NCBI GenBank assembly: GCA_012959435.1
Contig: DUDF01000193.1
Coordinates: 1 to 53,136 of the forward strand
DNA length: 53,136 nt
Direction of reading: 5' to 3'
Origin: Candidatus Poseidoniales archaeon
Lineage (GTDB): Archaea; Thermoplasmatota; Poseidoniia; Poseidoniales; Thalassarchaeaceae
A program made the position numbers and the translations under genes. Shown piece after piece: positions 1 to 28,592 of the stretch; position 1 is the stretch's first letter, and each line of letters starts with the position of its first letter. The notes beneath the pieces were generated by a model. The model saw only the letters and a program-made list of their open reading frames with translations. It was not told the origin of the DNA and did no database searches.

Positions 1-1609
1 CATCAGCAGTGGTGATGGCCGATTTGAATTGGTAGTTACCGGTAGTCATCAACGAGATTGCCGTCAGAGGGATGGAATTGAAATCCATAATGCGAGGTAT
101 CCAATGCAGGAACCTCTCAATCCTAGTGCCATCACTATTCCTCTTGATGCAATCCTAGTCGAAGATAGAATATCTCGCCAACCGAGAATTGGTAGTGAGG
201 AGCAACCCTATCTTAATAGTGATAGAAACGGAGAGATTGTAACTGTTGATGAATTGAAAATGACGCCGACTTCAAGAGGCCCAAAGGTGGGACCACCACG
301 CCTTCATTCTACTTGGCCAACCATCGGTTTGAAGGTTGGGTCAAGCAAGGCCATGTCGATAGACCCCCGCCCACTGATGCCGAATGCAACAGGGATTAAT
401 GACCACGATTTACGACATGGATTTACTGGGGGTCCATCAAGAAAAACCAAAATTTGGTCCCCAAGTAGACTTTCTCAATGGTTATCTTGTCCACGTAAAG
501 GCTGGCTTTTAACTAGACTTCATGCCGAAGGTGAAGATGATGAGGATGATGATGTTGATGTCCGAACTCGTGGTTTACTAATCCATGAAGTGTGGGCAGA
601 CTTCATTTGTGAATTCTTAGGGATGAAAGTTGAGATTGAACGTGATAATCTCACTCCACATTCACTTGGAGCGGCCGGAATTGAGGAGGCTACTTTACGC
701 CGTCGCTTATTGGAAATGGTTGATGAGAAAGCGCCGTGGTTACGCCATTCTGATGCAATTGCAACAGTGCGCCGTCTTGACCTTGTTGGGCTGAATCTTG
801 AAGCCTATGAAGCGGCTCTTGATGAGGTTGGGGGAGCCAGTACAAGCGGTCGCTTCGGTCGCTTGTTAGAATCAGAATTAGCAGCAGATGCAAGTGCACT
901 TCTAGCAATTGAATGGCCACTGACAAGTGGCGATAAGAAGGGTGGAATCATGTTAGAATTGCCTGAATCAGGTGAGTCAGTACCTCCTGGAATTCGTTTG
1001 AGGGGAACGATTGACCGAGTGGAAATAATCCCATTCCCTGAATTAGGTGGCAATTTTGTCAATGAATCTGGAGAAGGTTCAGAATGTCCTCTTGATCTTG
1101 ACTCAGGTGAATCTTGGAATGCACAGCGCCTAGTTGTAATCCGTGACCTAAAATCACTCGAAGGCCCGGGTAAAGGAAAATCGGGAGACCGTCATTTGAG
1201 AGAACTTCTAGAAGGCGTGCAACTCGCTTTGTATGCGCGAGCATGGGAGGTGACACACCCAGGTGATCGAGTAATCGGTGTTGGTATTTCCGAGGTTGGT
1301 GAAGAAAGTGGACTTTACATTGAGGCTGACCCAGAGTTCCAAACTCATCTTTCTAGTCTAGGAATAGGAAATGTTGAGTGTACTACACAAACCCTTTATC
1401 GCCGACCAAATGAGAATAATGAACCGCCATCCAGTAATCCATTTAGAGCATGGATGAGGCACCGTTTGACGGCTGCATTACGTATTGGGCAAATGTCCGA
1501 GAATGGTAGAGTAATCCCTACTCCAAGCGACCTTACATGCACATATTGTTCCGTGAAACAAGTATGTGGTTTGGCTCCGACTGTTGGAGGTGATCGCAAA
1601 TGGAATTGA
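1..1609 (+). CDS. AddB/Cas4-like PD-(D/E)XK nuclease subunit, 5' truncated by window
   Basis: The reading frame is open from base 2, so the true start lies upstream; the TTG at 29 is only the first start-like codon inside the window. Residue numbers count from that TTG. The last ~370 residues form a RecB-family nuclease: SPSRLSQWLSCP near 150 (Cys154), RGLLIHE near 190, RLRGTIDRVE, the catalytic RDLKS (D-x-K) and a Q-x3-Y motif (QLALY). It ends with C504-x2-C507-x5-C513, which together with Cys154 matches the four-cysteine [4Fe-4S] staple of AddB and Cas4 nucleases. The first ~140 residues show no recognisable motif and may be the end of an inactivated helicase-like region, as in AddB. The stop overlaps the start of the helicase gene by 10 bases, so the two are surely co-translated. 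Probable role: DNA double-strand-break end processing. Confidence 0.8.
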   Translation, partial: ISSGDGRFELVVTGSHQRDCRQRDGIEIHNARYPMQEPLNPSAITIPLDAILVEDRISRQPRIGSEEQPYLNSDRNGEIVTVDELKMTPTSRGPKVGPPRLHSTWPTIGLKVGSSKAMSIDPRPLMPNATGINDHDLRHGFTGGPSRKTKIWSPSRLSQWLSCPRKGWLLTRLHAEGEDDEDDDVDVRTRGLLIHEVWADFICEFLGMKVEIERDNLTPHSLGAAGIEEATLRRRLLEMVDEKAPWLRHSDAIATVRRLDLVGLNLEAYEAALDEVGGASTSGRFGRLLESELAADASALLAIEWPLTSGDKKGGIMLELPESGESVPPGIRLRGTIDRVEIIPFPELGGNFVNESGEGSECPLDLDSGESWNAQRLVVIRDLKSLEGPGKGKSGDRHLRELLEGVQLALYARAWEVTHPGDRVIGVGISEVGEESGLYIEADPEFQTHLSSLGIGNVECTTQTLYRRPNENNEPPSSNPFRAWMRHRLTAALRIGQMSENGRVIPTPSDLTCTYCSVKQVCGLAPTVGGDRKWN

Positions 1610-4600
1610 ATCGCGGTCAAACGCTTGGGCTAAATCTAGACATGCACATTGTCCTAGACGCAGGGGCAGGTACAGGAAAAACCGCTACAATTGTTCAACG
1701 GGTTCTAGAGCATTATCTTTCAGAAGACCAAAGGGCGACGAGACTACTTCCACCGGGCCCTCGTGAGGTTGACTTTAGTGGTGGTTTGCTTCAATCCGCT
1801 GCTAAAGATAGGGAAGATATGGTGAAGTGGCGTGGTCTGCTACCGACCGAAGTTGTAGTGCTGACTTTTACAGTGAAAGCAGCCGAAGAAATGCGCGACC
1901 GGATGCGCACTGAACTTTCGCGCTTGCGTTCTGGACCTAGGGGTGAAAGAGATGGAATGCGATATGACCCACGTATTCGTAACGAAGGTTTGGTTGAACA
2001 GTTGACGATGTTACTTGACGAGGCTCCAATCGGCACTATTGATTCGTTTCTCAATCGTTTGGTGTCGTCTCATCGTAGTTTGCTTGGTGACAGACCAACT
2101 CATCAGCAGATGTCTGATGCACAGCGAGCATTATTGATGGAGCGAGCAATGAGCTCGCTTTGGCGGATTCGTAATGAGAAACATGCTGGGGATTTACGAA
2201 TCCACTCTGTTACTCCAGCAGAATTTCTTGCGGCTCGTAACCGACTTTCACACCAAATGGGTGGTCGCTCTCGCAGTCAAAAAATAGTGGCCAAATTACT
2301 TCATAATTCAATTTTCGTAGACTCTGTGCGTAGGTCATTGGAATCACATTCCGGAGTTGTCAACGCAGATGCACTTCGGCATAGTTTCCTTTCACATATT
2401 GATGTACAGGAAATTAGTAATTTTGCTCAAAACCTCCATGCGATTGGTGATGATTGGTTGGCTGCTGCAAAAGAGCGTTCTGCAGACCTAGGTTTGGTTG
2501 AAGCACTCCAAAGTGAAACTAGAGTAAATGCTCTAGATACACTGATTGCTGCAGGAGTGCCTGATGATTTGTGGGACCAATTATTGTGGATTCGTCATTT
2601 TACTTTAGCAACATGTAGTATGGCCTCAATAGAGAAGATTATGCCATCGGTATTTTCTAGAAACCTTCTACCAAAGGGCGATGGCTGGCCATCGGGCGTG
2701 AACCCACTTGGTTCAATCAAAGACAAAGCAATTCGTGATGATATCAAAGAAAGCATGGTTGATGCACAGAATCGTGCGAAATCACTCTATGGCTCAATCG
2801 AAGGGATGAGAGTCCGCGCTTGTGCAGCCATTGCCGATTTACTGGACCCTAGAGAAGGACCACCTTGTTGCCCCGCAGATTCAGATGTTCATCTGCAAAG
2901 AATCTCAGACCCATTCCCTGCCTTTGTTGATGATGCACCTTTGGCTCTTGACGCTGATTGTGATGCGCGAATTATTTCAGACCTACTTATTGTTCACAAG
3001 GCCTCCCAAGATGTGTTGACCGAATTACGCCTTTTAGAGGGTTTACACGACCATTCTGATGTGTCAGAAGCGGCTGAGGATTTACTCCTTGCCCGTTGTC
3101 CAAGGATTTGTGCAAAATGGTATCCTAGAGATATTGTCGCTGCACTAAATGCTATTGATGATTCTAAACCTTGGCGTGATGAGCATATTCTTACAGCACT
3201 AAACTTGTGTGGTATTCCAGAGCAAGATGAAATTTCAGAGCACCATCAAGAATACCCAATGAAACTTGTAAAGGAGGATTTGGAAAGGCGTTACGCAGTT
3301 CTGAAAACAGTACGTAGACGATTCCGCGCATTCATTATTGATGAAGCCCAAGATAATTCAAATCAACAGTGGCGCCTTCTCTCAAGATTATGGGGGGAGA
3401 GAGAGCAGAAAGCAGGTGACCCTGAACCACCAAATTCGCCTTGGCAACCCACTGTTTGTTGGGTCGGTGACCAAAAGCAGAGTATCTACGGATTCCGTCA
3501 AGCTCAAGTGAGTGGGATGGCAAGATACACGGTGCATCTCAGGGCTATCAACGAGCACGAATATGCTACTGAATCAAGATTATTGATGAAACCATCACTA
3601 CGCCGACGAGATTCTGCTCGCGACCCAAGATTAGTGGACATCAGCAGCTTTGTCACCGGTCTTGAGTATGTCAATCACCGCCCGATTCCTGAAGGAGCAT
3701 GGGTAAAGTTTGATCGAGGGGACGACGATAAGAGGTTAGGGCATACAGATGTTATTCGCCGTACTCAAGGCCATGTTGACCTTGTCACGAACTACCGAAC
3801 TTGTCAGGACTTACTGTTGACAATGAATGAATGGTGGATTGACCTTTTTAATGACAGGCACAATTTATTCCCTGGTGATTGGTATGCTTCACCTAAGGAT
3901 TTACTAGCTCACAGAGTTGAAGAAAATGGCGGGCTTGAATGGTTGTTACCAATTGCTACTGAAGAAGCAAGTGACCCTAGTTCAGATTTGACAGTTCCAC
4001 TAGATCCATTTGAGTTAGGTGCAGATGCGAAACAAGTTCACCTTGAACACGAATTGGTTGCTGCTCGAATACGGGCTATGATTGATGGTGTGACACCATC
4101 AGTTCTGACAGTTCAGAATGAAGACTCTAAGAAACCTGAAGAAAGCAGTGTAACTCAAATGAATGATATCAAGCCAATTAAACCACGAGATATCATGGTA
4201 TTAATGCCTGCAAGAACTCACATGTATGACCTTATTCGCCGACTTGATGACCTTGGAATTCCTGCGTTAGCAGACCAAGACGGTGGTCTACTTGAGCAAC
4301 CAGTTGTGTGCTCATTATCAGCCCTTTTGCAGTTGTCTGCAAGGCGAGGTGATGTAAGTCGGGCTGCAACACTTGCTAGAACACCATTAGTTGGATTTAA
4401 TGATTCACAGTTAGAGAATTTCATTTCTGACCGCACCGGGTCATCTGATTTGCTAAAACGTTTGCAATCCCATGCAATCAGTGATGCTCAAAGAGCACTT
4501 TTTGAGCGCTGGAAACAGCTCGCTGATTGTAATAGAATAGTTCGTATGTTAGAAGAAACAGTAGACCACTCAGACCTACTGATTGCATATCCTGGTCAAG

Positions 4601-6585
4601 TGGATAGGCAATATGCAGAGCAATTTTTGTCTCTTATTCGCTCACAGATGGCAGAAGCAGGAGGCGACTCAGTACTTTTGGCAGAGCGAATCGGTCTGCT
4701 ATCATCAGTCAAAGGAAAACTGATTCTTGGCGAAGCGATGCCGGCTTCAAATGCCGTACGAGTGATGACGATTCATGGTTCTAAAGGATTACAATCTAAG
4801 GTAGTAATTGTATGTGGGGTATTCTCTGAAAATCAAAGTAACCTTAGCCAATCAAGGCGCGATAACATCTTGGTATCTGAACAGATGTTTTCCCCTCGCT
4901 CTAAACCATGGAAAAGCAGGGACGCGATAGATAGTGGTAGTTGGCGCCTTTCAACGGAAGTTCTTACCTCTCAAGTACAGGCTGAAGCTCGTAGATTACT
5001 CTATGTTGCTTGTACGAGGGTAAAAGATTTATTGATTCTAGCCGGTGCACCGAAGAATTCTGCTATCAACCAAGATGAAGGCGAAATTAGTATCTCATGG
5101 GCCCACAAACCAACTCCTAAATTTGGTTGGATGTGGCTTGAAGCAATTCGTCAAGCAGCTAGACGGGATGGTTTACTGACAGCCCCTTGGTTAATTGATG
5201 ACGACGATACTCTTCCAGTACCGTTGCCATTCCGATCCAAAGGTAAATTGATAATATCACCTAGTGAGATGATGTCAATGCCTTATTTGGCACCTAGTTT
5301 ACTACCGTCATTGAAAATCTATCACCATCCAGATTTCATTTTACCTCAGCGTGAACACCTATCACCATTAGTGAAGTTTACTCGCCTTCAAGAGAGCGCC
5401 CGATTGACGAATCCTGTTGATATTGACCTCGCTCCTACTAGGAAAGCAGAACGAAAATTACGTCTTGCACCACACATACTTGATTCAGCAAAATCCTGTG
5501 TACGTCGTCATTGGCTCAGTCAGTATGTCGGAATTTCAAGTGAGCCGGTCAAACTACCATTTATTCCTAGAGATGATGAATTGCCATCAGATGATTATAC
5601 TCCACTTGCAGCAAACGAACTGGGCTCTCTTTTCCATCGCTTGGTTGAACTTGGTTTGCCTAATCCAGGTATTTCAGGAGATAAACCATCCACTCCACTT
5701 TCTGAACAATGGGTTTCACCCTCACCAAATCAGATGCTTGAGCCCAGTCTTATTTCTCAGGTGCTTGATGAACTGCTCCCGGTCTCCGCTGATAGAGATT
5801 TAGCGTCAGAAATGTTGAAGAAAATGGCTGAAATCCTACTTAATGGTAAATTAGGAAGGCTCGTTCAAGGTGCAACAATTGATGGATTATTTGTAGAAGG
5901 ATTGAGGACAGAGTGGCCTTTCCTTGTCAATATTGAGCAACCATTCAGCGATGTAATAGAACATAGTTGGAGTCCTTTTGGAAACCAAATCGTAGAGCAA
6001 ATAACCTCATTAACATTTGAGTTGGATGGAATTGCTGATTTGGTTCTGTGCCAAACTGATGGCCAAACTCACAACACGATTCGAGCAATTGACTTGAAAA
6101 CTACTGGAGGCCTTTCAATTCTCAACCAGCCTGAAGATGTTGAAGGAACAATATTTGAGAGCCCATCTGACCCTGATGATGAAATCATTCGTACATCAGC
6201 AGAATTGGATTTATTGACTCATTACAGGATGCAACTCTATCTCTACCATCTTTGCCTAGTGCGCCAAGAATCTATGAGAGAAACACTTGGAATGGCTACA
6301 AGGGAGGTTCTACGTCCAGCCATTTTAGTTGCTTCAACAGGTAGACTAATCTCATGGACAGAAGAAGAATTTGAACAAATTGGCATAGAATTTGATGACC
6401 TTATCAAACAACTTGCTTTGGTTGAAGTTAAGGATAGAGGAGATGAAGCCAACTTCCCTAGATTACCGATTGAAGAAGAGCAAACATGTCGTCAATGCCC
6501 ATATTATCGCGGTAGTATTCGTCTATGCGCTCCAAATGGCATTGCCCTAGGGGCAGCAGAATTAGATGAAATCAATTTGGAATAA
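1600..6585 (+). CDS. AddA/RecB-like superfamily 1 helicase with C-terminal nuclease
   Basis: A 1661-residue UvrD/RecB-type ATP-dependent helicase-nuclease. Visible helicase motifs: Q-motif NRGQT (residue 4 on), Walker A GAGTGKT (22-28), motif Ia VLTFTVKAAEEMR, Walker B DEAQD (581-585), motif III GDQKQSIYGFRQ (~622), motif V TIHGSKG (~1057) and motif VI RLLYVACTR (~1132). The C-terminal ~360 residues form a PD-(D/E)XK nuclease: GSLFHRL, ELDGIADLV, DLK (1498-1500) and QLYLY. Unlike bacterial AddA, this nuclease also has an iron-sulfur-like cysteine set: Cys1300 plus C1630-x2-C1633-x9-C1643. At 1661 residues it is longer than the ~1200 usual for AddA, mostly because of long insertions between helicase motifs. 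It overlaps the preceding nuclease gene by 10 bases, so the pair probably makes one heterodimeric end-resection enzyme. The helicase-nuclease call is certain; the AddA label is by analogy. Confidence 0.88.
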   Translation: MELNRGQTLGLNLDMHIVLDAGAGTGKTATIVQRVLEHYLSEDQRATRLLPPGPREVDFSGGLLQSAAKDREDMVKWRGLLPTEVVVLTFTVKAAEEMRDRMRTELSRLRSGPRGERDGMRYDPRIRNEGLVEQLTMLLDEAPIGTIDSFLNRLVSSHRSLLGDRPTHQQMSDAQRALLMERAMSSLWRIRNEKHAGDLRIHSVTPAEFLAARNRLSHQMGGRSRSQKIVAKLLHNSIFVDSVRRSLESHSGVVNADALRHSFLSHIDVQEISNFAQNLHAIGDDWLAAAKERSADLGLVEALQSETRVNALDTLIAAGVPDDLWDQLLWIRHFTLATCSMASIEKIMPSVFSRNLLPKGDGWPSGVNPLGSIKDKAIRDDIKESMVDAQNRAKSLYGSIEGMRVRACAAIADLLDPREGPPCCPADSDVHLQRISDPFPAFVDDAPLALDADCDARIISDLLIVHKASQDVLTELRLLEGLHDHSDVSEAAEDLLLARCPRICAKWYPRDIVAALNAIDDSKPWRDEHILTALNLCGIPEQDEISEHHQEYPMKLVKEDLERRYAVLKTVRRRFRAFIIDEAQDNSNQQWRLLSRLWGEREQKAGDPEPPNSPWQPTVCWVGDQKQSIYGFRQAQVSGMARYTVHLRAINEHEYATESRLLMKPSLRRRDSARDPRLVDISSFVTGLEYVNHRPIPEGAWVKFDRGDDDKRLGHTDVIRRTQGHVDLVTNYRTCQDLLLTMNEWWIDLFNDRHNLFPGDWYASPKDLLAHRVEENGGLEWLLPIATEEASDPSSDLTVPLDPFELGADAKQVHLEHELVAARIRAMIDGVTPSVLTVQNEDSKKPEESSVTQMNDIKPIKPRDIMVLMPARTHMYDLIRRLDDLGIPALADQDGGLLEQPVVCSLSALLQLSARRGDVSRAATLARTPLVGFNDSQLENFISDRTGSSDLLKRLQSHAISDAQRALFERWKQLADCNRIVRMLEETVDHSDLLIAYPGQVDRQYAEQFLSLIRSQMAEAGGDSVLLAERIGLLSSVKGKLILGEAMPASNAVRVMTIHGSKGLQSKVVIVCGVFSENQSNLSQSRRDNILVSEQMFSPRSKPWKSRDAIDSGSWRLSTEVLTSQVQAEARRLLYVACTRVKDLLILAGAPKNSAINQDEGEISISWAHKPTPKFGWMWLEAIRQAARRDGLLTAPWLIDDDDTLPVPLPFRSKGKLIISPSEMMSMPYLAPSLLPSLKIYHHPDFILPQREHLSPLVKFTRLQESARLTNPVDIDLAPTRKAERKLRLAPHILDSAKSCVRRHWLSQYVGISSEPVKLPFIPRDDELPSDDYTPLAANELGSLFHRLVELGLPNPGISGDKPSTPLSEQWVSPSPNQMLEPSLISQVLDELLPVSADRDLASEMLKKMAEILLNGKLGRLVQGATIDGLFVEGLRTEWPFLVNIEQPFSDVIEHSWSPFGNQIVEQITSLTFELDGIADLVLCQTDGQTHNTIRAIDLKTTGGLSILNQPEDVEGTIFESPSDPDDEIIRTSAELDLLTHYRMQLYLYHLCLVRQESMRETLGMATREVLRPAILVASTGRLISWTEEEFEQIGIEFDDLIKQLALVEVKDRGDEANFPRLPIEEEQTCRQCPYYRGSIRLCAPNGIALGAAELDEINLE

Positions 6586-11021: not shown

Positions 11022-11137
11022 GTGAGTCTCCCTCTTAGCATTACACCCTGCATTGATTCTCGTATTGCATGATTATGTCAACCTTTTACTAAAGGGCATA
11101 TTGATGAGGGGGTGGTGTGCCGCTTGGCCTGAGTAAC

Positions 11138-12274
11138 ATGGCTGACCAATCCTCACCCTGCTCGGCTGGAATTATGCCGAGTTCTACAGAGGCTGTCAAA
11201 ATTCACCATCTAGTCAAGGCTCCAGAAAATACACCTGGGGCAATTCGCAAGCGTGAATCGTGGGATGCTGATGAGTTAGCAACAGTCTACACAACTCCTG
11301 AATGCTTACCAGACGGGACAATATGTCAAGCGACTACAGTTATTTTTCGAACCAAAGGTTGCGTCTGGTGGTGGAATTCAGGTTGCACTTTTTGTGGCTA
11401 CTTCAACGACGTAAGGGATGATGTCACTTATGACAATTTGATGGCACAATGGCAATCAGCCAAAGACCAAACTAACGATTTTGAGGGCTCAGAAGTAATC
11501 AAAGTCTACACATCGGGGACATTTTTTGAGGATCGTGAAAATCCTCCTGAGTGGCAAGAGGCAATACTTCGAGAGACCAATGAGAGGGGACTGCGCCTCA
11601 TTGTTGAAGCACGAGCTGAGATGTGCACACCAGAAAAAATGTCGTGGGTAGCGAATTTGCACCCTGGATGTGTTGTCGCCATTGGTTTAGAAGCAATGGA
11701 CGATGAAGTCCTAAAATTCCATTGCAATAAGGGATTTTCAACAAAACAATGGCACAAAGCCATTGAGACTCTTCGGGCTAACGAATTAGAAGTCAAGACA
11801 TATTTGCTGTTCAAACCACCATTCATGTCCGAGGGAGATGCGTTGAAACATTGTATTGAATGGATTCGCGAAGTAGGTCCCCTTTCTGATGAGGTTAGCG
11901 TTAATCCAATGAATATCCAGCGCGGTACAATTGTTGAGAGACTATTCCGTCACCGTGAATACCGGCCTCCGTGGCTATGGTCACTAGTTGAGATGATTCG
12001 TCAAGTTGACTCTGTCCCCGGCCGATTGATAGTTCATCCAACTGCAGCCGGCCGTGTTCGTGGGGCACATAATTGTGGCAAATGTGACAAGCATGTTGCT
12101 GCCGCAATTGAACGCTATTCGGTTTCAGGAGACTTGGAAGAGTTTGCTGGCCTAACCTGTGAATGTGAGAAAATCTGGGCTACTGAAATCGAGTTGGATT
12201 GCACCATCCCATCTCCATTTGGGGTCGGTTTAGACCGCCGCATGCCTGTTGAAGAATCTCTAATGTCACCTTAA
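11138..12274 (+). CDS. Radical SAM protein of archaeosine biosynthesis (RaSEA-like)
   Basis: Likely the radical SAM partner of ArcS that converts the lysine-modified preQ0 base at position 15 of archaeal tRNA to archaeosine. The 378-residue protein has an iron-sulfur motif with unusual spacing, C75-x7-C83-x2-C86 (GCVWWWNSGCTFCGY), as recalled for the TIGR01210/RaSEA family, followed by a TIM-barrel-like region with EVIKVYTSGTF, IVEARAEM, AIGLEAMDDEVL and KTYLLFKPPFM. The C-terminus has more conserved cysteines (NCGKCDKH; LTCECEK). The ATG at 11138 is preferred over the GTG at 11117. It is transcribed divergently from the transporter. The radical SAM call is secure; the RaSEA assignment is by family memory. 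Confidence 0.75.
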   Translation: MADQSSPCSAGIMPSSTEAVKIHHLVKAPENTPGAIRKRESWDADELATVYTTPECLPDGTICQATTVIFRTKGCVWWWNSGCTFCGYFNDVRDDVTYDNLMAQWQSAKDQTNDFEGSEVIKVYTSGTFFEDRENPPEWQEAILRETNERGLRLIVEARAEMCTPEKMSWVANLHPGCVVAIGLEAMDDEVLKFHCNKGFSTKQWHKAIETLRANELEVKTYLLFKPPFMSEGDALKHCIEWIREVGPLSDEVSVNPMNIQRGTIVERLFRHREYRPPWLWSLVEMIRQVDSVPGRLIVHPTAAGRVRGAHNCGKCDKHVAAAIERYSVSGDLEEFAGLTCECEKIWATEIELDCTIPSPFGVGLDRRMPVEESLMSP

Positions 12275-12355
12275 TTTTAACACCATTTCTCTCCTAATGC
12301 TTAAGGACATCTTTCATTTCGGAAAGATTGCCTTAAGGCAATTTGTGGTGAAGTG

Positions 12356-12619
12356 ATGAGTGAACTACCCGAAATGACGCAGGGGCAAGAAGAGCCTGCT
12401 GCTTCTACAGCTGTTTGGACATTGAGTTTAGTTGGCGCTTTTGCGTTTATGATTTTGTATGGGGTACTCTACCCTAATCACCCATTCCCAGGGCTTGGGG
12501 ATATACTTCCATTATTCAGTGAATTAGGCAGTAGTGTTGTTTGGTTCTTTATCGCAGGGATAATTCTAGGTTTGTCGATGTTATTAGCGATGATAGTTGG
12601 GGAGTCCATTGCAGAATGA
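12356..12619 (+). CDS. Small two-helix membrane protein
   Basis: An 87-residue protein with a polar acidic N-terminus and two hydrophobic segments, about residues 20-40 (WTLSLVGAFAFMILYGVLY) and 58-83 (VVWFFIAGIILGLSMLLAM). The ATG at 12356 follows GGTGA. It ends 9 bases before the oxidase-like gene, whose Shine-Dalgarno GAGGTGA overlaps this stop, so the two are an operon and this is probably an accessory subunit or partner. The sequence is not recognised; no heme- or copper-binding motif is seen. Confidence 0.7.
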   Translation: MSELPEMTQGQEEPAASTAVWTLSLVGAFAFMILYGVLYPNHPFPGLGDILPLFSELGSSVVWFFIAGIILGLSMLLAMIVGESIAE

Positions 12620-12628
12620 GGTGATATC

Positions 12629-14464
12629 ATGGAAATTCGAACATTATTCATTTCATACGTTATTTGGTTATTTTTTGTTAGGTATCTGACTATCACAGGT
12701 CTTGGGCCATTTGGTTCATTTGCTCGTGACATCTCCACCTTCATGCTTGGAAAGGGACTTGGCCCGGCCGCTGATTTGATGGAAGATCGGGCAGGTGGGG
12801 CAGCCAAAACTTGGTTCGCTCATGGAATCTTCTGGTTCATCATTGCAGCAACTTTGTCATTTTTGGGAATGTGGACAGCATACGAACCAAATGCTCTACA
12901 CTCACTTGGAGCAATAGGATATTCTCCAAGTGTCGCTCAGGCTACCGCTGCGGTTCATGTTGTAACTGTATTCGGCGCATTATCAATGATGTTGATGGGT
13001 GCTGGGTTTGCTATGCAAGGCCGCCTTGCGGGCGGGCGAATGGCGAATGAAGCGACAACCGCACTGATTGCATTTGCATGGAGTGCTGTCGTTGCAGCAG
13101 GACTAATCCTTTCACATACTGATTTAATTGGAGAAAGTAGTTGGTTTGAATTACCACCCGTTTACTACATTTTAATGACATTCTTGGCTTTACCACTATT
13201 TGTAAACCACTTGTTGACGATGGCGAACTCAGAATCACCGGTAATGATTCCACAGTGGTTTATCGTAATGGGTTACGCTGCATTCATTTGGATGGGCGTT
13301 GCTTCGATGTTCTTACTTGGAGGAGAAAACCACACTCTTTCTTGGCTACTAGTCAAGGTTCTGTTTGGTGGTTGGTTGCTCTCACAAGCACTAGGTATTG
13401 CTCATCATGTGATACCATCTGCTCTAGGGGTTCCACTTTGGAGTCGTTCTCTTGCTACTCTAACCTTGTTTGGTACATTCCTAACATTCTCCCCACTTGG
13501 TGCCATGGCTTCAGTTCCTACAATGGGGGCTTTCATGCAAGCAATGGTAGCAATTCTATTGTCACTTTCATTAGTCCCATTAATCGCTACTGTAGTCAAT
13601 TTGACTAAGACTGCAAGCGGTCGAGTAATGGAATCTTATGGAGTTAAGTTCACAATCCTCGGCGTCATTATGTTGATTCCAATTTCGTTTGGTAGTTTAT
13701 TCGCCTCTGTTTCAGCATTTGGTGGAGGTAATGAGTTAGCTCACATAGCCCCAACATTAGACACGCTCGCACTATGGGGTGTTATTGGTATGATTGCACT
13801 AGGAAGTGCTCACATGTTATTCCCACAAGTAACCGGCCGTGATTTATTCAGTTGTGCTAAGACAAAGATGACCTTCTGGTTTGCAACAGTTGGAATTGTT
13901 GGATTTGGTACTTCACAATTTATCGTTGATTACGTGAATCATTCAATTGGTGCTGCTGATGTCTCTCTAGCACTAGAAGAGGCAGGTGTTAGCGCTGCTG
14001 GAGTAGGAGATGTGCAGGTTTTCGCAGCCATCATGTTCTATGGTGTTGCTCTAGCAGGTGTCTTTGCTGCTCAAAATATGTTACAGGGTTCATTCCGAGG
14101 CACTTTACTTTCAGACAGTGCTCCAGCGGCAAATGTCACTACGTCCCAGATGGCAATCGGTGGTACCACTTCAATCCGCAACCTGCTCGCAGCAGGTGCA
14201 GGTGTTGACACCGTTCTTACAGTAGATGGAGGCTCCTCAGCAGGTCGAATTTCATTAGCAGATATTACCCCAGCAGATGAGGCCCCCGAAGAAGCAGAAG
14301 TACTGCCTGAAGAGGATGAAGAGGATGAAGAGGAAGAGACAGCGGTTGTAATCCCTGATAACCTCTCAAAGATGTTGAAAGGAGAATTAGTTGAGTTGGC
14401 TAAGGCAGCAGGGGTTTCTACTGCAGGAACCAAGTCTGATCTAATTGGTCGCCTTAGCGCTTGA
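12629..14464 (+). CDS. Heme-copper-oxidase subunit I-like membrane protein with C-terminal SAP domain
   Basis: A 611-residue protein with about 12-14 membrane helices over residues 1-510. The part around residues 240-420 lines up by eye with CcoN (cbb3 oxidase subunit I): GIAHHVIPSALGVPLWS matches the helix-loop GMMYYFVPK..RPVYS, and GMIALGSAHMLFPQVTGRDL matches the segment after the heme histidines. In CcoN two histidines lie just before that segment; here the aligned residues are Leu and Thr (TLDTLALW), and the copper-ligand HH pair and the Gly-His of the Cu-Tyr helix are not found. His110 is in about the place of the first heme ligand. After an acidic linker (EEDEEDEEEE), residues 578-611 read as a SAP nucleic-acid-binding motif (LKGELVELAKAAG..GTKSDLIGRL). 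It cannot be a normal oxidase if the alignment holds. Confidence 0.55.
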   Translation: MEIRTLFISYVIWLFFVRYLTITGLGPFGSFARDISTFMLGKGLGPAADLMEDRAGGAAKTWFAHGIFWFIIAATLSFLGMWTAYEPNALHSLGAIGYSPSVAQATAAVHVVTVFGALSMMLMGAGFAMQGRLAGGRMANEATTALIAFAWSAVVAAGLILSHTDLIGESSWFELPPVYYILMTFLALPLFVNHLLTMANSESPVMIPQWFIVMGYAAFIWMGVASMFLLGGENHTLSWLLVKVLFGGWLLSQALGIAHHVIPSALGVPLWSRSLATLTLFGTFLTFSPLGAMASVPTMGAFMQAMVAILLSLSLVPLIATVVNLTKTASGRVMESYGVKFTILGVIMLIPISFGSLFASVSAFGGGNELAHIAPTLDTLALWGVIGMIALGSAHMLFPQVTGRDLFSCAKTKMTFWFATVGIVGFGTSQFIVDYVNHSIGAADVSLALEEAGVSAAGVGDVQVFAAIMFYGVALAGVFAAQNMLQGSFRGTLLSDSAPAANVTTSQMAIGGTTSIRNLLAAGAGVDTVLTVDGGSSAGRISLADITPADEAPEEAEVLPEEDEEDEEEETAVVIPDNLSKMLKGELVELAKAAGVSTAGTKSDLIGRLSA

Positions 14465-14524
14465 TTGAAGAGTTGGGAAACCGCCATAGCGAATACCCTT
14501 ACTCCGCCAATAAGAGGAATTGCA

Positions 14525-15799
14525 ATGCGTATTGGCTTAGTCGGCAAACCAAACGTTGGCAAATCAACTACTTTTGCAGCATTAACAGAAACCACGGTTG
14601 AAATTGCAAACTATCCATTCACAACAATTGAGGCAAATGTTGGTGTAACTTACATCGCAGCAACATCACCTTGCGCCTGCAAAGAACTGTCAATCAAGAT
14701 AGCAGAAAGTGGTAGGTCTGTTGACTCTGATGGAGATAGAGATGGCAGCATCTGCCAGCCAAGAACCGGTGCTTGTAATGGCCATGAAAGATTAGTTCCC
14801 GTTACTCTAGTGGATGTAGCGGGGTTAGTTCCCGGAGCACACGAAGGACGTGGTAGGGGTAACCAGTTTCTTTCTGATTTGGCTAGTTGTGATGCTTTGA
14901 TCCAAGTTGTTGATGCCTCTGGAGGCACAGATATTGAGGGTAACCCTACTGGTCCAGGTGGTTGCTCACCAAGTGAAGAGCACGATTTTTTGATTGAAGA
15001 ATTAGCAGCATGGATTGATGGAATTATCTCCAATGGTTGGGCCAAGGCGGTTCGCCGTATTCAATCTGAAGGCGAGGCCGGATTGACAAATTTCCTGCAT
15101 GAGCAATTAACTGGTATTGGCGGAACTCATAGTGATGTAGCAGTAGCATTGGATATTTTCAGGCGTGAAAATCCGGATATACCAACAATCAATATCTGGG
15201 GCGATGAAGAAAAAAGAACACTTTCACACATTCTTCGTCGCCATATGTTCCCGCTGTATATTGCCGCTAATAAATCAGATTTAGCAGATGAAGAGACTTA
15301 TTCAACTCTGCAGACTCAAGTCAAATCTTATGGAGGTTTATTCGTGCCTTGTAGTGGTGAAACAGAACTTGCCCTGAGGCGTGCCAGTAAAGTGGGAGCC
15401 ATTTTCTATGTGCCTGGTGAATCAAGTTTCGAAGTAAATCCTGATGCTACTTTGAATGATACACAGAAAAGAGGACTTTCAGAACTTCAAGATAGAATAT
15501 CCAAAATGGGTGGGACCGGTTTGAACGAACTACTTCGAAAAGTAGTGTTTGAGAGATTGGAGAAAATAGTTGCTTACCCTGTCCAAGATGAGACACATTG
15601 GACTGATGGTGATGGCAGAGTACTGCCTGATGCCCTACTAATCTCTTCAGGAACCACCGCCAAAGGGTTGGCCTACGCCGTTCACACGGACTTGGGGGAT
15701 GGCTTCATTCGCGCATCTGATGCACGAAGTGGCAGAGTCATTGGGTCAGAGCATGAACTTGAGGACAATGATATCATCAAAATCCATGCAAAAACCTGA
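14525..15799 (+). CDS. ychF: YchF/OBG-type GTPase/ATPase
   Basis: A translation-associated P-loop NTPase of the OBG group (424 residues). P-loop GKPNVGKST begins at residue 7 and sits two residues after the start codon, as in YchF. Switch region TTIEANVGV and the G3 region VDVAGLVPGAHEGRG follow, with NKSD as the G4 motif. The final ~80 residues are a TGS domain (LPDALLISSGTTAKGLAYAVHTDLG). There is an archaeal insertion rich in Cys (PCACKE) between switch I and G3. The ATG at 14525 is chosen because AGAGGA precedes it and it gives the canonical MRIGLVGKP start; an in-frame TTG at 14465 directly after the previous stop would add 20 unconserved residues. Confidence 0.9.
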   Translation: MRIGLVGKPNVGKSTTFAALTETTVEIANYPFTTIEANVGVTYIAATSPCACKELSIKIAESGRSVDSDGDRDGSICQPRTGACNGHERLVPVTLVDVAGLVPGAHEGRGRGNQFLSDLASCDALIQVVDASGGTDIEGNPTGPGGCSPSEEHDFLIEELAAWIDGIISNGWAKAVRRIQSEGEAGLTNFLHEQLTGIGGTHSDVAVALDIFRRENPDIPTINIWGDEEKRTLSHILRRHMFPLYIAANKSDLADEETYSTLQTQVKSYGGLFVPCSGETELALRRASKVGAIFYVPGESSFEVNPDATLNDTQKRGLSELQDRISKMGGTGLNELLRKVVFERLEKIVAYPVQDETHWTDGDGRVLPDALLISSGTTAKGLAYAVHTDLGDGFIRASDARSGRVIGSEHELEDNDIIKIHAKT

Positions 15800-15858: not shown

Positions 15859-16914
15859 TTATTCCGTGTCGCCGAAGTCTGGTGCTGCTGGCAGATTATC
15901 AGATTCTGGAGCAGGGGCTTCATCTACCACTGGCGGAGATTCATCTTCATCTTCTTTTTCTTCAGATTCAATTACTGCATGAAAATCTCCTTCTGTATTT
16001 AGTAGATCGTCAGCATCAATAGTCTTTAACGAGGCAAGGAATGCCTCATTATCTTCTACAGTGAATCCCTTCATACCTTTGCCAACCCCACCTAACTTTC
16101 CATAATCGTATGGGAGTACTAGAGTAATGAGCGTATGTTGTTCCATACCCAATTCACCTACCGTTTGTAGACGGCGCAATTCTAGAAGTTCAGGGTTCTG
16201 AGCCATGGTGTTAGCCGCATAAGCGAGATTCTTGACCGCTTCAACTTCTCCTTCAGCACGTCGTAGTCTAGCTTTGCGCTCTCTTTGCGCTTCTGCTTCA
16301 CGAGCAATTGCTCTTTGCATATCTGTTGGAATAACTACATCTGTGATATCAATTCGAGTCACATCAATTCCAAGTGGAAGTGAAAATCCGTCAAGAATAT
16401 CCTCCATACGGTTGGCGATAGTTTCTCTCTTGGAAAGCATTTCGTCCAAGGTAAATTCGCCAATTACTACTCGCAGAGTAGACATTGTTGCTTGGCGGAT
16501 TACTGTCGCAGGGTCTGAAACAGCCAATACAGATGTCATTGGGTCAATGACTTTCCAATAAACGACTCCATCCACTTTGATACTTACATTGTCTTTAGTA
16601 ATACAGACTTGACCAGGAATATTTTCTGGACGGTCGCGGATATCAACTGCTAGGAACATATCAATTATTGGCCATCGGAATGCTAAACCAACCCCATTCA
16701 ATTTTATTGGTTTTCCAAATCGGAATTTGATTGCACGTTCGTATTGGTCAAGAATGGTAACCCATCCTCGCCTTGGCCAAGTACCTCTAGGAGGATATGC
16801 TGTGGGTTCACCACCAGCAGCGGAAAACATACCTCCTGCCGCCTTTAGTCCAAGGATTAATCCTGCAGCGATTAATCCACACGCTGCTCCAAGCAATAGT
16901 TCAAGCAAGACCAT
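15859..16914 (-). CDS. SPFH/band 7 (stomatin-like) membrane protein
   Basis: A 351-residue protein with an N-terminal hydrophobic anchor (residues 1-25), then an SPFH domain: FRFGKPIKLNGVGLAFRWP, DNVSIKVDGVVYWKV and a charged helix REAEAQRERKARLRRAEGE that drives oligomerisation. After ~residue 270 comes an acidic, proline-rich tail. Stomatins form ring assemblies at membranes and scaffold other membrane proteins. The ATG at 16914 overlaps the TGA of the upstream SPFH gene by one base (TGATG) and follows GGAGGTGG; the GTG at 16917 is less likely. Two adjacent, divergent SPFH genes suggest a hetero-oligomer. Confidence 0.88.
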   Translation of the reverse strand: MVLLELLLGAACGLIAAGLILGLKAAGGMFSAAGGEPTAYPPRGTWPRRGWVTILDQYERAIKFRFGKPIKLNGVGLAFRWPIIDMFLAVDIRDRPENIPGQVCITKDNVSIKVDGVVYWKVIDPMTSVLAVSDPATVIRQATMSTLRVVIGEFTLDEMLSKRETIANRMEDILDGFSLPLGIDVTRIDITDVVIPTDMQRAIAREAEAQRERKARLRRAEGEVEAVKNLAYAANTMAQNPELLELRRLQTVGELGMEQHTLITLVLPYDYGKLGGVGKGMKGFTVEDNEAFLASLKTIDADDLLNTEGDFHAVIESEEKEDEDESPPVVDEAPAPESDNLPAAPDFGDTE

Positions 16915-17693
16915 CACTTACCACCTCCTGAAAACAGTTCACCAAGCGGACCATTACTAATATCTAGCAGGGTGTCAGGTAGCATCATAATTCGTGTAGC
17001 ATTGTTTTCTGCTCCAACTTCCGAAAGAACTTGTAATCGGCGTAATTCCATTAGTGCTGGGAATCGAGCAAACAGTTCTTGTGCCTCTGCCAACTTGCTA
17101 GCAGACTCGCGCTCAGCACTTGCTTTGATGACTCTTGAGCGAGCCTCTCTGTCGGCCTCAGCCACCTTTGCCATGGCTCTAGTCAAATCGTGTGGGAGTT
17201 GCATGTCGGTTAATTCCACATGCCTAACATCAATTCCCCATGGATCCGTCGCTTCATCTAAATTGGTTCGAATTCTTTCAGCAACCTTTTCTCTTTCCTG
17301 AAGAATTTCGTCAAGAGGAACAGAACCAAAGACATCACGGAGAGCACCCATTGCCGCCATTCCAATTGACGCCCGAGCGTTGGTAACCTTGTTTACCGCA
17401 TCACCGGGGTCTCTAACACGGTAGAAAATAACGGCATCAATTGTCAGTGAAATATTGTCTTTTGTGACCACCGATTGACCCGGTACGTCATTGATGAGAA
17501 GACGTAAATCCCATCTCACCATACGGTCTACCCATGGAATTACAATTCTAATTCCTGGTGATAATACACCTCTGTAGGAACCAAGTCGGAAGACGACTGC
17601 TCCTTCCCAATGTCTAATAATTTTCAAAAAACTCCCTAATAAGAGCGCCAACACAAAAGTTATCATCCCTATAATCAAAAATACGGCTACCAT
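16914..17693 (-). CDS. SPFH/band 7 slipin-type protein
   Basis: A 259-residue slipin/stomatin homologue of near-canonical length. N-terminal transmembrane helix (residues 4-25), then RHWEGAVVFRLGSYRGVLSPG, typical of slipins, DNISLTIDAVIFYRV, and the helix EADREARSRVIKASAE. The C-terminus has the hallmark ALMELRRLQVLSEVGAENN. Translationally coupled to the second SPFH gene by a one-base stop/start overlap. No NfeD partner gene, often seen next to slipins, is in the window. Confidence 0.9.
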   Translation of the reverse strand: MVAVFLIIGMITFVLALLLGSFLKIIRHWEGAVVFRLGSYRGVLSPGIRIVIPWVDRMVRWDLRLLINDVPGQSVVTKDNISLTIDAVIFYRVRDPGDAVNKVTNARASIGMAAMGALRDVFGSVPLDEILQEREKVAERIRTNLDEATDPWGIDVRHVELTDMQLPHDLTRAMAKVAEADREARSRVIKASAERESASKLAEAQELFARFPALMELRRLQVLSEVGAENNATRIMMLPDTLLDISNGPLGELFSGGGK

Positions 17694-24865: not shown

Positions 24866-24911
24866 TCAATTAGCCCGAAGTTCAAAGTGTAGGCGCTTAT
24901 CTCCCCGTTTG

Positions 24912-27900
24912 ATGAAGTCTAAGTCGTTGCTACTTGTAATAATCTTAATCGTCTCCTCACAGTATGTATTTTTCACTTCTGAAATCACGACAAATTCAGC
25001 ATTAGATGAGAAACAGCCCATGGCGCAATCAGTGGCTAGCCAATGGCAGATGAATGATGCCCCACCTATTCAATCAGGTTGGTCTGCTAACACCTGGCAG
25101 CCAGATCCAAAGGGCCCGCTTTGGGACTTAGACTTCAGTCCAGATGCTACTAAGATAGCAGGAGTTGAAATATCAGATAACAGACTCTTTGTTTGGAATG
25201 TTTCAGATGGCCGTGTTTTACTATGGATTCATCATTCTGCTGCGATAGTTGATGTTGTTTGGCTTTCAGATGAATGGGTGCTAGTGGCAGACGCAGGAAT
25301 CAATTGGTATTCTTACCATGTTGTTGACAACGGTTCATCCACCCCTCATACCTCAACAGAGATGCGCTCTGGTCAATGGAGCGATGGTCTAACTGGAACA
25401 TATAGCGGATATTTGTGGGGTCTCGATGCCTCTTTGAGTCATTCAAAGGTGGCATTTTGTGGTAACATCAACCAGATGAATATGGGTGGGGAAATTGTAA
25501 TTGCTGATTTATCTCATTTCATTGATGGTTCACCAGCCAACGCACAACACTTCTTCCCACAATATTGGTCGGTAGATTGTGAAATTTCACCTAACGGGGC
25601 AACGGTTGCTGCAATAGGGCGGAATTTGACCACATATTCTGATGGGAATGTCACCTACCGAGATGTTGTGTATGGAGTTGAAGTTGCAACGGGAGCGCTT
25701 CAATGGGAACGTTTTGTTGGTGGTGATAATTCCAGTGCATGGGCAATAACTTGGGAGCCTGGAGGAGGCAGTTACACGATTGCTTACAATCACCCCCTTC
25801 CGAGCCAACCAAATGTTTGGGAAGGTGTCGCTACAGCCTATGCTGAGGTAGATGGTTCAGTATTTTGGTATTCACCAATTCCACAGAATGTCAGCAGTCT
25901 TAGTTGGCTTCCCGATGGCTCCTACCTTGGAGTTGGATTATACGACCCAGGGAGAATATCATTTATTGATACTGCAGGCCATATTCAAACAGATTTTGGA
26001 TGGCATGCTGTAAAGTCTGGCTCAACCTCAATTCCAGAGGATATCACCGCGGTAACTACAGCCTCAATTTCAGCACCTACCACGGCAAACCAATTGATGG
26101 CATCAGCAGGCAGGGACGGTGCAATCGAAATTTGGGTAGTTGATGTCACTAATTTTGAAATCCTACCGTATCGGAGATTAGGTCCTGCACATGTAAGGGA
26201 AATTATAGTTCACCCCATGCTTGATTTGGTTGCTATCGCTGATTCATCAGGTGTTGTAACCGTGCGTTCATCAAATGGTTCTATTGAGCGCCAATGTTTC
26301 CATCCAGAGTATGGTCAGGTTGTTTATGAAATCCCATTTGCTAAATCAGTAGATTGGATTAATGATGAAGCAATAGTAGCTTTCAGTGATGGGGTAATTA
26401 TTGCTTGTAATGAATTTAGTAAACGGTCTTGGAGTTTTGACTTAAGAGATCACAAAACCGTAGGTGCTTTTGGTAGAATTTCCATGCATCAAACTACTAA
26501 TTATGCAGCAATTTCTTGGTCATCTAATACCCTCAACACCTCATTAGATGGGCATGTTGCTATAATTGAGCCAATGTCTGGACAATTCTTCAATGAATGG
26601 CAATATCCCGAATCTCATTGGACAATGTCCTTCAATGATTTTGGCACAATTCTGGCCTCAGTTGGCCAAACTGGTGGGGTAAGATTGTGGAATACAAGTG
26701 ACCCCAATCCACAAAATTGGATGGATGATGGTTCACCATACTCTCACAATGGGTATGTTGGGGTCACTGAATGGATGCCAGGTGCTGACTTGTTAGTAAC
26801 TGCAGGTTGGGATAAACAACTAATCATGTGGGACATTCAAAGCCAATCTCAAATGCAGCAGATTACACTACTTAACGAAGCCTTTGCCTTAGCAGCATTA
26901 CTCAATGAAGGCATAATTGTGGTCGGTACGGGTAACGCTGGCAATTCACTTTCTGGACAGTTAGAATTCTATGATATCCAAAATAGTTCGTTAGTCAATT
27001 CTTACCAAATGACTCACATTCCTCGTGGTTTAGATGTATTTCCAAGCGACCAGTCTTTGGTGGTGGTAAACCATACTGGTACAATGCTAGTTCTAAAACA
27101 GGATGCTGATGGTGATGGTTGGTTAGATGTGGATGATGCCTTTCCAAATGACCCTACTCAACATCAGGATAGTGATGGTGATGGTTGGGGGGATGACCAA
27201 ACTCAGTCCAATGGCGATGATTGTTTGAATACTCAGGGGAGTAGTTACCAAGACAGAAATGGGTGCCTGGATAGTGACGGAGACGGCTATAGTGATGCCG
27301 ATGCTACTTGGCTTGCCCACCCTCTAGGTGCCGCTGATGCCTTCCCTAACATGCCTTCACAATGGCGTGATACTGACGCAGATGGTCATGGTGATGAGTA
27401 TTCCTTTACCGTTGGTAATGATGGTCTAAGAGTTGGCGAATCTGGTGATGCTTTCATCAATGATGTAGCCCAGTATCGTGATTTAGATGGAGATGGTTGT
27501 GGTGATAATTACACACATGGTGATGACAATGGAATGCGGATAAATGAAGCAGGGGATGCGTTCATCTCAGACCCCACACAATGCAATGATTTTGATGGTG
27601 ATGGTTATGGTGATAATTACACCTTTACCCTAGATAATGGTGATTTACGAGTTGAGGCAGGAGATGCTTTCCCACTTGATTACATGGCGTGGTCTGATTT
27701 AGATGGGGATGGTTGTCCGACAAGTTCTGCAACTGGCCTTGCCATTGACCTCTATCCTACAGATAGTGAAAATTGTGACCAAGAATTACCATTTTGGTTA
27801 CCGGTAAATTTAGTTGTATCAATCTCAAATGATGCATCATTATGGTATCTAGATATTTCTTGGGATTCTGCTGCCGATAACACTGATATTATTCGGTTAG

Positions 27901-28592
27901 AATTTGCCTTGAATAATGAGACATCCAGTTCAATCGATTCAGATTTTTCAGCGATCCAAGTTTGGACTTCAACTGGTGCTGTTAATGAGAATTTGAGTAT
28001 TAACTCAGTGACTGGAAATAATTTCCTTCATCTTAGACTAACAGGGGTCCCTGATGATGGTGATTCAATTAGTCGCAATTGGACATCGATTTGGGTTGTT
28101 CATTCTGGTGGCGAAAATACAACCGAAAATGATTCTGATAATAGTACCAATAACAATCTTGACTCAGATGGTGATGGTGTAATTGATTCATCAGACAACT
28201 GTCCTAATGAGTATGGGACAATTGCAAATCAAGGTTGTCCCGAGATAAATGACACATCTAATCAGACTGGAACTAATGGAAGTAATCCAGAAGATGAACC
28301 AGTGAATTCCTCAGCAATCTGGTATATATTAATTGCAGTAATGCTTGCAGGAATTGCAATACTCGCAGTCATGGCGATAAGGTATAATCGCAAGACAGAT
28401 AATATTGAAGAAGGGGTCTATTCAATGGCCCAACCTAGTTCGTTTGCTCCACCTTCAACCCCGCCATCCCCTAATATGCATCTTCCGTGCAAGGAGTGCG
28501 GAGGCTTCGTCCAAGAGGTAATGCATCAAGGAAACTTGTGGACATGGTGCCCATCTTGCCGTGAGTGGCAAGATTTCCTAGGGAAGCGATAA
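24912..28592 (+). CDS. Giant secreted WD40-like/calcium-repeat protein with cytosolic zinc ribbon
   Basis: A 1226-residue anchored surface protein. N-terminal signal peptide (hydrophobic core SLLLVIILIVSSQYVFF). Residues ~60-720 contain WD40-like blades (GPLWDLDFSPDATKIAG; ADLLVTAGWDKQLIMWD; ASAGRDGAIEIWVVD), probably one or two beta-propellers. Residues ~735-960 carry at least seven thrombospondin-type-3-like calcium repeats (DADGDGWLDVDDAFPNDP; DSDGDGWGDD), and one more (DSDGDGVIDSSDNCPN) follows near 1090. A transmembrane helix at ~1137-1157 precedes a basic stop-transfer and a C-terminal zinc ribbon (CKECGG..CPSCREW), which should face the cytoplasm. The ATG at 24912 is preferred over TTG 24909. 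Likely role in cell-surface adhesion or substrate capture; unproven. Confidence 0.8.
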   Translation: MKSKSLLLVIILIVSSQYVFFTSEITTNSALDEKQPMAQSVASQWQMNDAPPIQSGWSANTWQPDPKGPLWDLDFSPDATKIAGVEISDNRLFVWNVSDGRVLLWIHHSAAIVDVVWLSDEWVLVADAGINWYSYHVVDNGSSTPHTSTEMRSGQWSDGLTGTYSGYLWGLDASLSHSKVAFCGNINQMNMGGEIVIADLSHFIDGSPANAQHFFPQYWSVDCEISPNGATVAAIGRNLTTYSDGNVTYRDVVYGVEVATGALQWERFVGGDNSSAWAITWEPGGGSYTIAYNHPLPSQPNVWEGVATAYAEVDGSVFWYSPIPQNVSSLSWLPDGSYLGVGLYDPGRISFIDTAGHIQTDFGWHAVKSGSTSIPEDITAVTTASISAPTTANQLMASAGRDGAIEIWVVDVTNFEILPYRRLGPAHVREIIVHPMLDLVAIADSSGVVTVRSSNGSIERQCFHPEYGQVVYEIPFAKSVDWINDEAIVAFSDGVIIACNEFSKRSWSFDLRDHKTVGAFGRISMHQTTNYAAISWSSNTLNTSLDGHVAIIEPMSGQFFNEWQYPESHWTMSFNDFGTILASVGQTGGVRLWNTSDPNPQNWMDDGSPYSHNGYVGVTEWMPGADLLVTAGWDKQLIMWDIQSQSQMQQITLLNEAFALAALLNEGIIVVGTGNAGNSLSGQLEFYDIQNSSLVNSYQMTHIPRGLDVFPSDQSLVVVNHTGTMLVLKQDADGDGWLDVDDAFPNDPTQHQDSDGDGWGDDQTQSNGDDCLNTQGSSYQDRNGCLDSDGDGYSDADATWLAHPLGAADAFPNMPSQWRDTDADGHGDEYSFTVGNDGLRVGESGDAFINDVAQYRDLDGDGCGDNYTHGDDNGMRINEAGDAFISDPTQCNDFDGDGYGDNYTFTLDNGDLRVEAGDAFPLDYMAWSDLDGDGCPTSSATGLAIDLYPTDSENCDQELPFWLPVNLVVSISNDASLWYLDISWDSAADNTDIIRLEFALNNETSSSIDSDFSAIQVWTSTGAVNENLSINSVTGNNFLHLRLTGVPDDGDSISRNWTSIWVVHSGGENTTENDSDNSTNNNLDSDGDGVIDSSDNCPNEYGTIANQGCPEINDTSNQTGTNGSNPEDEPVNSSAIWYILIAVMLAGIAILAVMAIRYNRKTDNIEEGVYSMAQPSSFAPPSTPPSPNMHLPCKECGGFVQEVMHQGNLWTWCPSCREWQDFLGKR

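Follow-up and report, generated by a model that had tools for sequence, protein, structure and literature searches.

The window, a 53,136-nucleotide stretch of Poseidoniales DNA, carries at 12356–14464 the interval that we analyzed, which consists of two genes, c1 and c2, in the same frame with a TGA between them (all features are on the plus strand unless stated otherwise). The first of these (12353..12619) encodes a two-helix membrane protein of 88 aa from an ATG at 12356, and c2 (12629..14464) encodes a CcoN-like membrane protein of 611 aa without heme or copper ligands, as assessed by Pfam, a PDB profile search, AF2 and Foldseek, and ligand alignments. The pair lies within a conserved block opened by RaSEA, a radical SAM protein for archaeosine biosynthesis (11117..12274; TIGR01210, 306.9 bits vs. 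a cut-off of 212), and closed by a YchF-related GTPase, Obg-like and with a TGS domain (14465..15799; NF007171, 446 bits), whose ORF abuts the stop codon of c2. The order RaSEA–c1–c2, with RaSEA in the same position and c1 directly upstream of c2, was found in 21 of 21 neighborhoods, and the GTPase followed c2 in all 20 neighborhoods with a continuing contig. Spacing between c1 and c2 was 0 to 14 bases, with a 4-base overlap in one genome, while the gap between c2 and the GTPase ranged from −4 to 84 bases in the relatives and the window, several relatives showing a 4-base overlap. In the f3 genomes, a search of about 1.4 kb around RaSEA revealed no relative of the GTPase. None of the 21 neighborhoods had respiratory genes adjoining c2, nor CcoO or CcoP genes beside it, the neighbors being RaSEA, c1, and the GTPase.

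The leader upstream of c1 (12298..12355) contains a promoter-like sequence, CCTAATGCTTAAGG, and a palindrome, ATTGCCTTAAGGCAAT (12327–12342), just 5' of the ribosome-binding site, and these features are kept in relatives. Across the c1 upstream regions, a perfect palindrome lies between the promoter-like consensus AAYNYTTAW and the ribosome-binding site, immediately 5' of the latter; the sequence of the stem varies by clade while its pairing is retained (AGATTGCC/GGCAATCT, TGACCCC/GGGGTCA, and TTGCCC/GGGCAA). Stems of at least 6 bp were present in 40 of 98 upstream regions vs. 2.0 in shuffles. The palindrome may act as an operator or form a hairpin in the leader. Rfam contained no known RNA family matching the leader or the window, and RNAalifold, run on an imperfect alignment, gave no consensus structure for the leader.

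Other parts of the window hold several unusual genes. Two adjacent SPFH/Band 7 (stomatin-like) genes follow the GTPase on the minus strand (15859–17693); the same pair is found in another genome of the window's genus (L049) and is absent from the remaining neighborhoods examined. A 1227-aa protein (24909–28592) has a WD40/beta-propeller region resembling the propellers of eukaryotic THOC3 and CDC20, and a 1661-aa protein (1600–6585) is an AddA-like fusion of a UvrD-like helicase with a PD-(D/E)XK nuclease domain.

A preliminary description of the interval had called c2 CcoN-like. Pfam COX1 matches residues 59–435 with an E-value of 3.8e-7 and 29.8 bits, under the curated cut-off of 34.8, and no NCBIfam model matched c2. 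Compared with all PDB sequences, a profile built from 28 relatives found CcoN only (9g6b, 1.1e-9; 3mk7, 3.2e-9; 6xkw, 3.8e-7), and against a rhizobial protein annotated as cbb3-type subunit I, hhalign gave a probability of 97%. For the AF2 model of c2 (pLDDT 77.7, pTM 0.76), Foldseek placed CcoN first (TMt 0.76–0.82; 3mk7_A, 0.82, E 5.5e-12), followed by NOR (0.72) and then by A/B-type oxidases (about 0.6). The CcoN-fold core spans residues 57–490 (12797..14098), and its 12 predicted membrane helices, delimited by the AF2 helices and the alternation of K+R in the loops, correspond to the 12-helix fold of heme-copper oxidase subunit I. Because sequence and modeled fold both support it, we consider the remote homology of c2 to the cbb3 oxidase catalytic subunit CcoN to be established, and the original assignment is borne out by a significant oxidase match on both counts. 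An origin as a paralogue of the same genome's COX1 was rejected (hhalign probability 0.3%).

Metal ligands are what define the heme-copper oxidases. To place the ligand positions in c2, we aligned it with rhizobial proteins annotated as cbb3-type subunit I, and we counted conservation among 99 distinct full-length relatives. At the heme-ligand HxH of helix X, c2 reads L377-D378-T379 (13757..13765), confirming the Leu and Thr reported at the two heme-histidine positions; both histidines were present together in none of the 99 relatives, with His377 in none and His379 in 5. The copper-site histidines, likewise reported as absent, are replaced by K243 (13355..13357) at the helix VI CuB position, where the relatives have H in 30, R in 28, and K in 14 cases, and by L290-G291 (13496..13501) at the CuB histidine pair, where no relative has His at either position. 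In helix II, hhalign aligns the low-spin-heme histidine with V109; H110, one residue on, is present in only 8 of the 99 relatives and is therefore not a conserved ligand. As controls, the separate COX1 of the same genome keeps WYFGHPEVY, HH, and HFH, and a true CcoN retains every ligand. The whole family, and not just a single sequence, has lost the ligands. Lacking the HxH, the three CuB histidines, and the helix II histidine, c2 has none of the ligands of heme-copper subunit I and for this reason should not be classed among the oxidases. The protein could still bind heme or metal through ligands at new, shifted positions, and the extra histidines of c2 (H110, H259/H260, and H396) and a His at 243 or 480 in some clades agree with this; however, no His column is conserved, the commonest reaching 14 of 28 or 42 of 99 relatives, nor is any Cys or Met column among the c2 relatives, and we give such shifted ligands hardly any credence.

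We found c2 in 129 of the 132 Poseidoniales (Marine Group II) genomes searched, in both families and in one copy per genome, barring split contigs and one weak stray match. It was absent from all 14 genomes of family f3, a sister family, and a search of the phylum (295 genomes) gave just two marginal partial matches outside the order (about 194 other genomes), neither of them convincing. The homologue search covered the phylum, and a single-protein scan beyond it reached close relatives only (those with names being "Candidatus Poseidoniales" and "Candidatus Thalassarchaeaceae", which puts the window in Marine Group II), so other phyla may hold distant homologues. Between close relatives, dN/dS was about 0.05–0.08 for the membrane core of c2; for c1, it was 0.01–0.13 overall and 0.01–0.03 between close relatives. 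These ratios and the conservation rule out a decaying pseudogene, and c2 is a functional, order-specific core gene. Our literature search found no description of the family.

An oxidase fold that is universal in an aerobic order possessing canonical low-affinity cytochrome c oxidases (PMC6336850) would suit an assembly or accessory factor of the true respiratory chain, serving either the aa3-type oxidase or Marine Group II's unusual cytochrome b/Rieske complex. A parallel is offered by the Halobacteria family fam02696, which PMC9258230 describes as a distant homologue of oxidase subunit I adjoining oxidase genes. Against such a role, c2 stands beside respiratory genes in none of the 21 neighborhoods, and it is nearest to the C-type CcoN, not to the A-type COX1 of its own genome; we consider a respiratory accessory function distinctly unlikely.

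The topology of c2 is that of CcoN plus one extra N-terminal helix. Mean K+R counts of the loops alternate between 1.0–4.5 inside and 0.04–0.32 outside, and by the positive-inside rule the C-terminal tail is therefore placed in the cytoplasm, the location that the preliminary description had sought for the tail domain. Most residues conserved in at least 90% of relatives lie in the inner half and the inner loops: on the inner side K42, D49, W62, E141, N193, T197, W210, W271-S272, N324, T328, and P399, and next to the membrane G523, D527, and T528. The loop motifs said to be kept are indeed so, with N193/T197, W271-S272, N324/T328, and P399, at the cytoplasmic end or in loops, conserved in 96–100% of the 99 relatives. 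A cytoplasmic juxtamembrane motif, TSIRNLLAAGAGVDT (residues 514–528; 14168..14212), has the family form T(S/T)IRxLLxxGxGxDT, with T514, R517, G523, D527, and T528 conserved at 86–98% of 99. Its single occurrence in the genome excluded a general sorting signal. From this distribution, we infer that c2 functions through its cytoplasmic face.

The outer, former metal region is variable, the exceptions being a basic tendency at 243 and an acidic one at 378 and 434. Two of these positions, 243 and 378, belong to the former ligand region, and with 434 they are the most charged membrane-center columns in the outer third of the protein: 72 of the 99 sequences have a basic residue at 243 and 63 an acidic one at 378, and about 75% are acidic at 434. 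They raise the alternative of a non-redox transporter, ion path, or receptor, in which the emptied cavity would form a charged, outward-open pocket for binding or conducting an ion or a small molecule. A basic 243 and an acidic 378 occur together in 52 sequences and neither in 16 (Fisher p 0.005, without correction for relatedness), and where 243 is neutral in a genus, 378 is mostly neutral too. However, several genera have lost the charges at 243/378 (I-N, A-S, P-E, and Q-R), which is unlike a transport site, and the association by genus is merely suggestive and the coupling loose. We regard a transporter or receptor as rather unlikely.

The tail of c2 ends in a SAP-like segment (residues 579–609; 14363..14455), which scores 15.6 bits against Pfam PF02037, below the curated cut-off of 23.9, and 20.7 bits in a genome scan. 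Four relatives have tails scoring 27–36 bits at the same C-terminal place, and dN/dS of the segment is about 0.07–0.14 within the genus (0.07–0.10 between close relatives); given these scores and the purifying selection, the SAP tail is not a chance match. In the window's family, it is found in two genera only (g1 and g2) and the other nine (g3–g11) have no added domain, so that 9 of 21 genera and 46 of 99 sequences lack one. In the sister family, g12–g20 have by pattern an EF-hand pair, which is not a module for nucleic acids, in some cases with SAP added, and the pair was found in every member whose tail was read. Its one sequence of g21 scores by pattern for SAP only and shows an EF-like pair on reading. 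One sister-family member has helix-hairpin-helix (HHH) repeats in its tail and others a Rho_N-like match. In one sister-family locus (L034, 5788–8373), an oxidase-like protein with an EF-hand pair and two helix-hairpin-helix repeats in its tail has an ORF truncated by the contig end. Across the family, the c2 tail is therefore a swapped accessory.

SAP domains are found on 3–9 proteins per genome in this class, and the carriers in the same genome include ribosomal L32e and S3Ae, a subtilase, and an M28 peptidase; at L074 and L075 of that genome, L32e has an N-terminal and S3Ae a C-terminal SAP. The preliminary description had thought a SAP domain on a polytopic membrane protein unexpected: the domain is real and clear in relatives, if marginal in c2 itself, but as a frequent add-on in the lineage it is less surprising than was assumed. 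That description had further proposed that the protein tethers nucleic acid to the membrane through this tail. The cytoplasmic location would allow a DNA or RNA tether, as would the SAP domains that occur in the window's genus and, in part, in the sister family, the HHH pairs in one member, and the Rho_N-like matches in others. Yet nine genera have no added tail domain, the constant element of the sister-family tail is the EF-hands and not SAP, and these genomes use SAP as a generic add-on. Since SAP is absent from 9 of 21 genera and EF-hands are constant in the sister family, nucleic-acid tethering is not the core function, and as the function of the family we consider it very unlikely; within the window's genus, a lineage-specific contact with nucleic acid is possible. 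PMC9258230 describes calcium-binding families specific to Poseidoniales subgroups.

The identity of c1 was considered in relation to the partners of CcoN. FixP_N, the CcoP N-terminal domain, scores 11.5 bits on c1 against a cut-off of 24.9, and among the relatives the best E-value was 0.023, with matches in 2 of 15 members; with these weak matches and no support from hhalign, c1 was rejected as a remnant of CcoP, CcoQ, or CcoO. When c1 and c2 were modeled jointly in AF2, with the TGA read through and 11 in-frame relatives paired, the confidence for c1 was low (pLDDT about 40–55). The joint model did not place c1 and thus lends a complex no support, and a c1–c2 complex is inferred from the gene pairing.

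The best explanation, one that we hold tentatively and with somewhat less than even confidence, is that c2 is a "pseudo-oxidase": a scaffold without cofactors that docks partners on its conserved side facing the cytoplasm. Under this model, an ancestor of the Poseidoniales (Marine Group II) would have captured a cbb3-type CcoN, which would then have shed all heme and copper ligands and been retained as a non-redox membrane scaffold. The c1 and c2 proteins would form a complex, and the inner half, the 23–56 segment, and the juxtamembrane motif would provide a surface on which cytoplasmic proteins dock, with the co-encoded GTPase as the first partner to consider. The SAP, EF-hand, and HHH tails might supply lineage-specific contacts or a calcium response. 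A re-purposed oxidase scaffold with a two-helix partner, as first suggested, is well supported by the CcoN fold, the family-wide loss of ligands, the strong purifying selection, and the invariable gene pair. The docking scaffold is weakened as an explanation in that RaSEA and the GTPase are housekeeping genes and may be mere neighbors, and in that the inner-side N/T, P, and W/Y-S motifs, partly common to CcoN, could be purely structural. In a wider and doubtful form, the order would depend on a membrane signaling or docking device in which a cofactor-free oxidase descendant works with a two-helix protein and a YchF-type GTPase and has a cytoplasmic tail swapped between calcium- and nucleic-acid-binding forms.

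A large, order-wide family that is under selection and keeps the fold without any ligand would count as a clear case of a membrane pseudoenzyme in the heme-copper superfamily, and the oxidase scaffold would have a use outside respiration. With c2 nearly universal in one of the most abundant archaeal groups of the surface ocean, its function bears on basic cell biology. When genomes are annotated, the COX1-like matches of the c2 family should not be taken for a second terminal oxidase.

Among known systems, c2 is closest to CcoN, the cbb3 or C-type subunit I, which is its best PDB match by profile and structure and with which it shares the predicted 12-helix fold and the inner-loop motifs. Unlike CcoN, however, c2 has no heme or CuB ligands, carries an extra N-terminal helix and inner segment (residues 1–56) and a long cytoplasmic tail, and has no adjoining CcoO or CcoP. 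The nitric oxide reductase NorB has the same superfamily fold, but the match of c2 to it is poorer than that to CcoN, and c2 is without metal ligands. As described in PMC9258230, the Halobacteria family fam02696 resembles the c2 family in being archaeal, remote from oxidase subunit I, and without Pfam annotation; by that same description it is set apart in adjoining oxidase genes, which c2 does not. Finally, the SAP-tailed proteins of Poseidoniia have the same small module at a protein end, but c2 differs from them in being a polytopic membrane protein and in carrying the module in some genera only.
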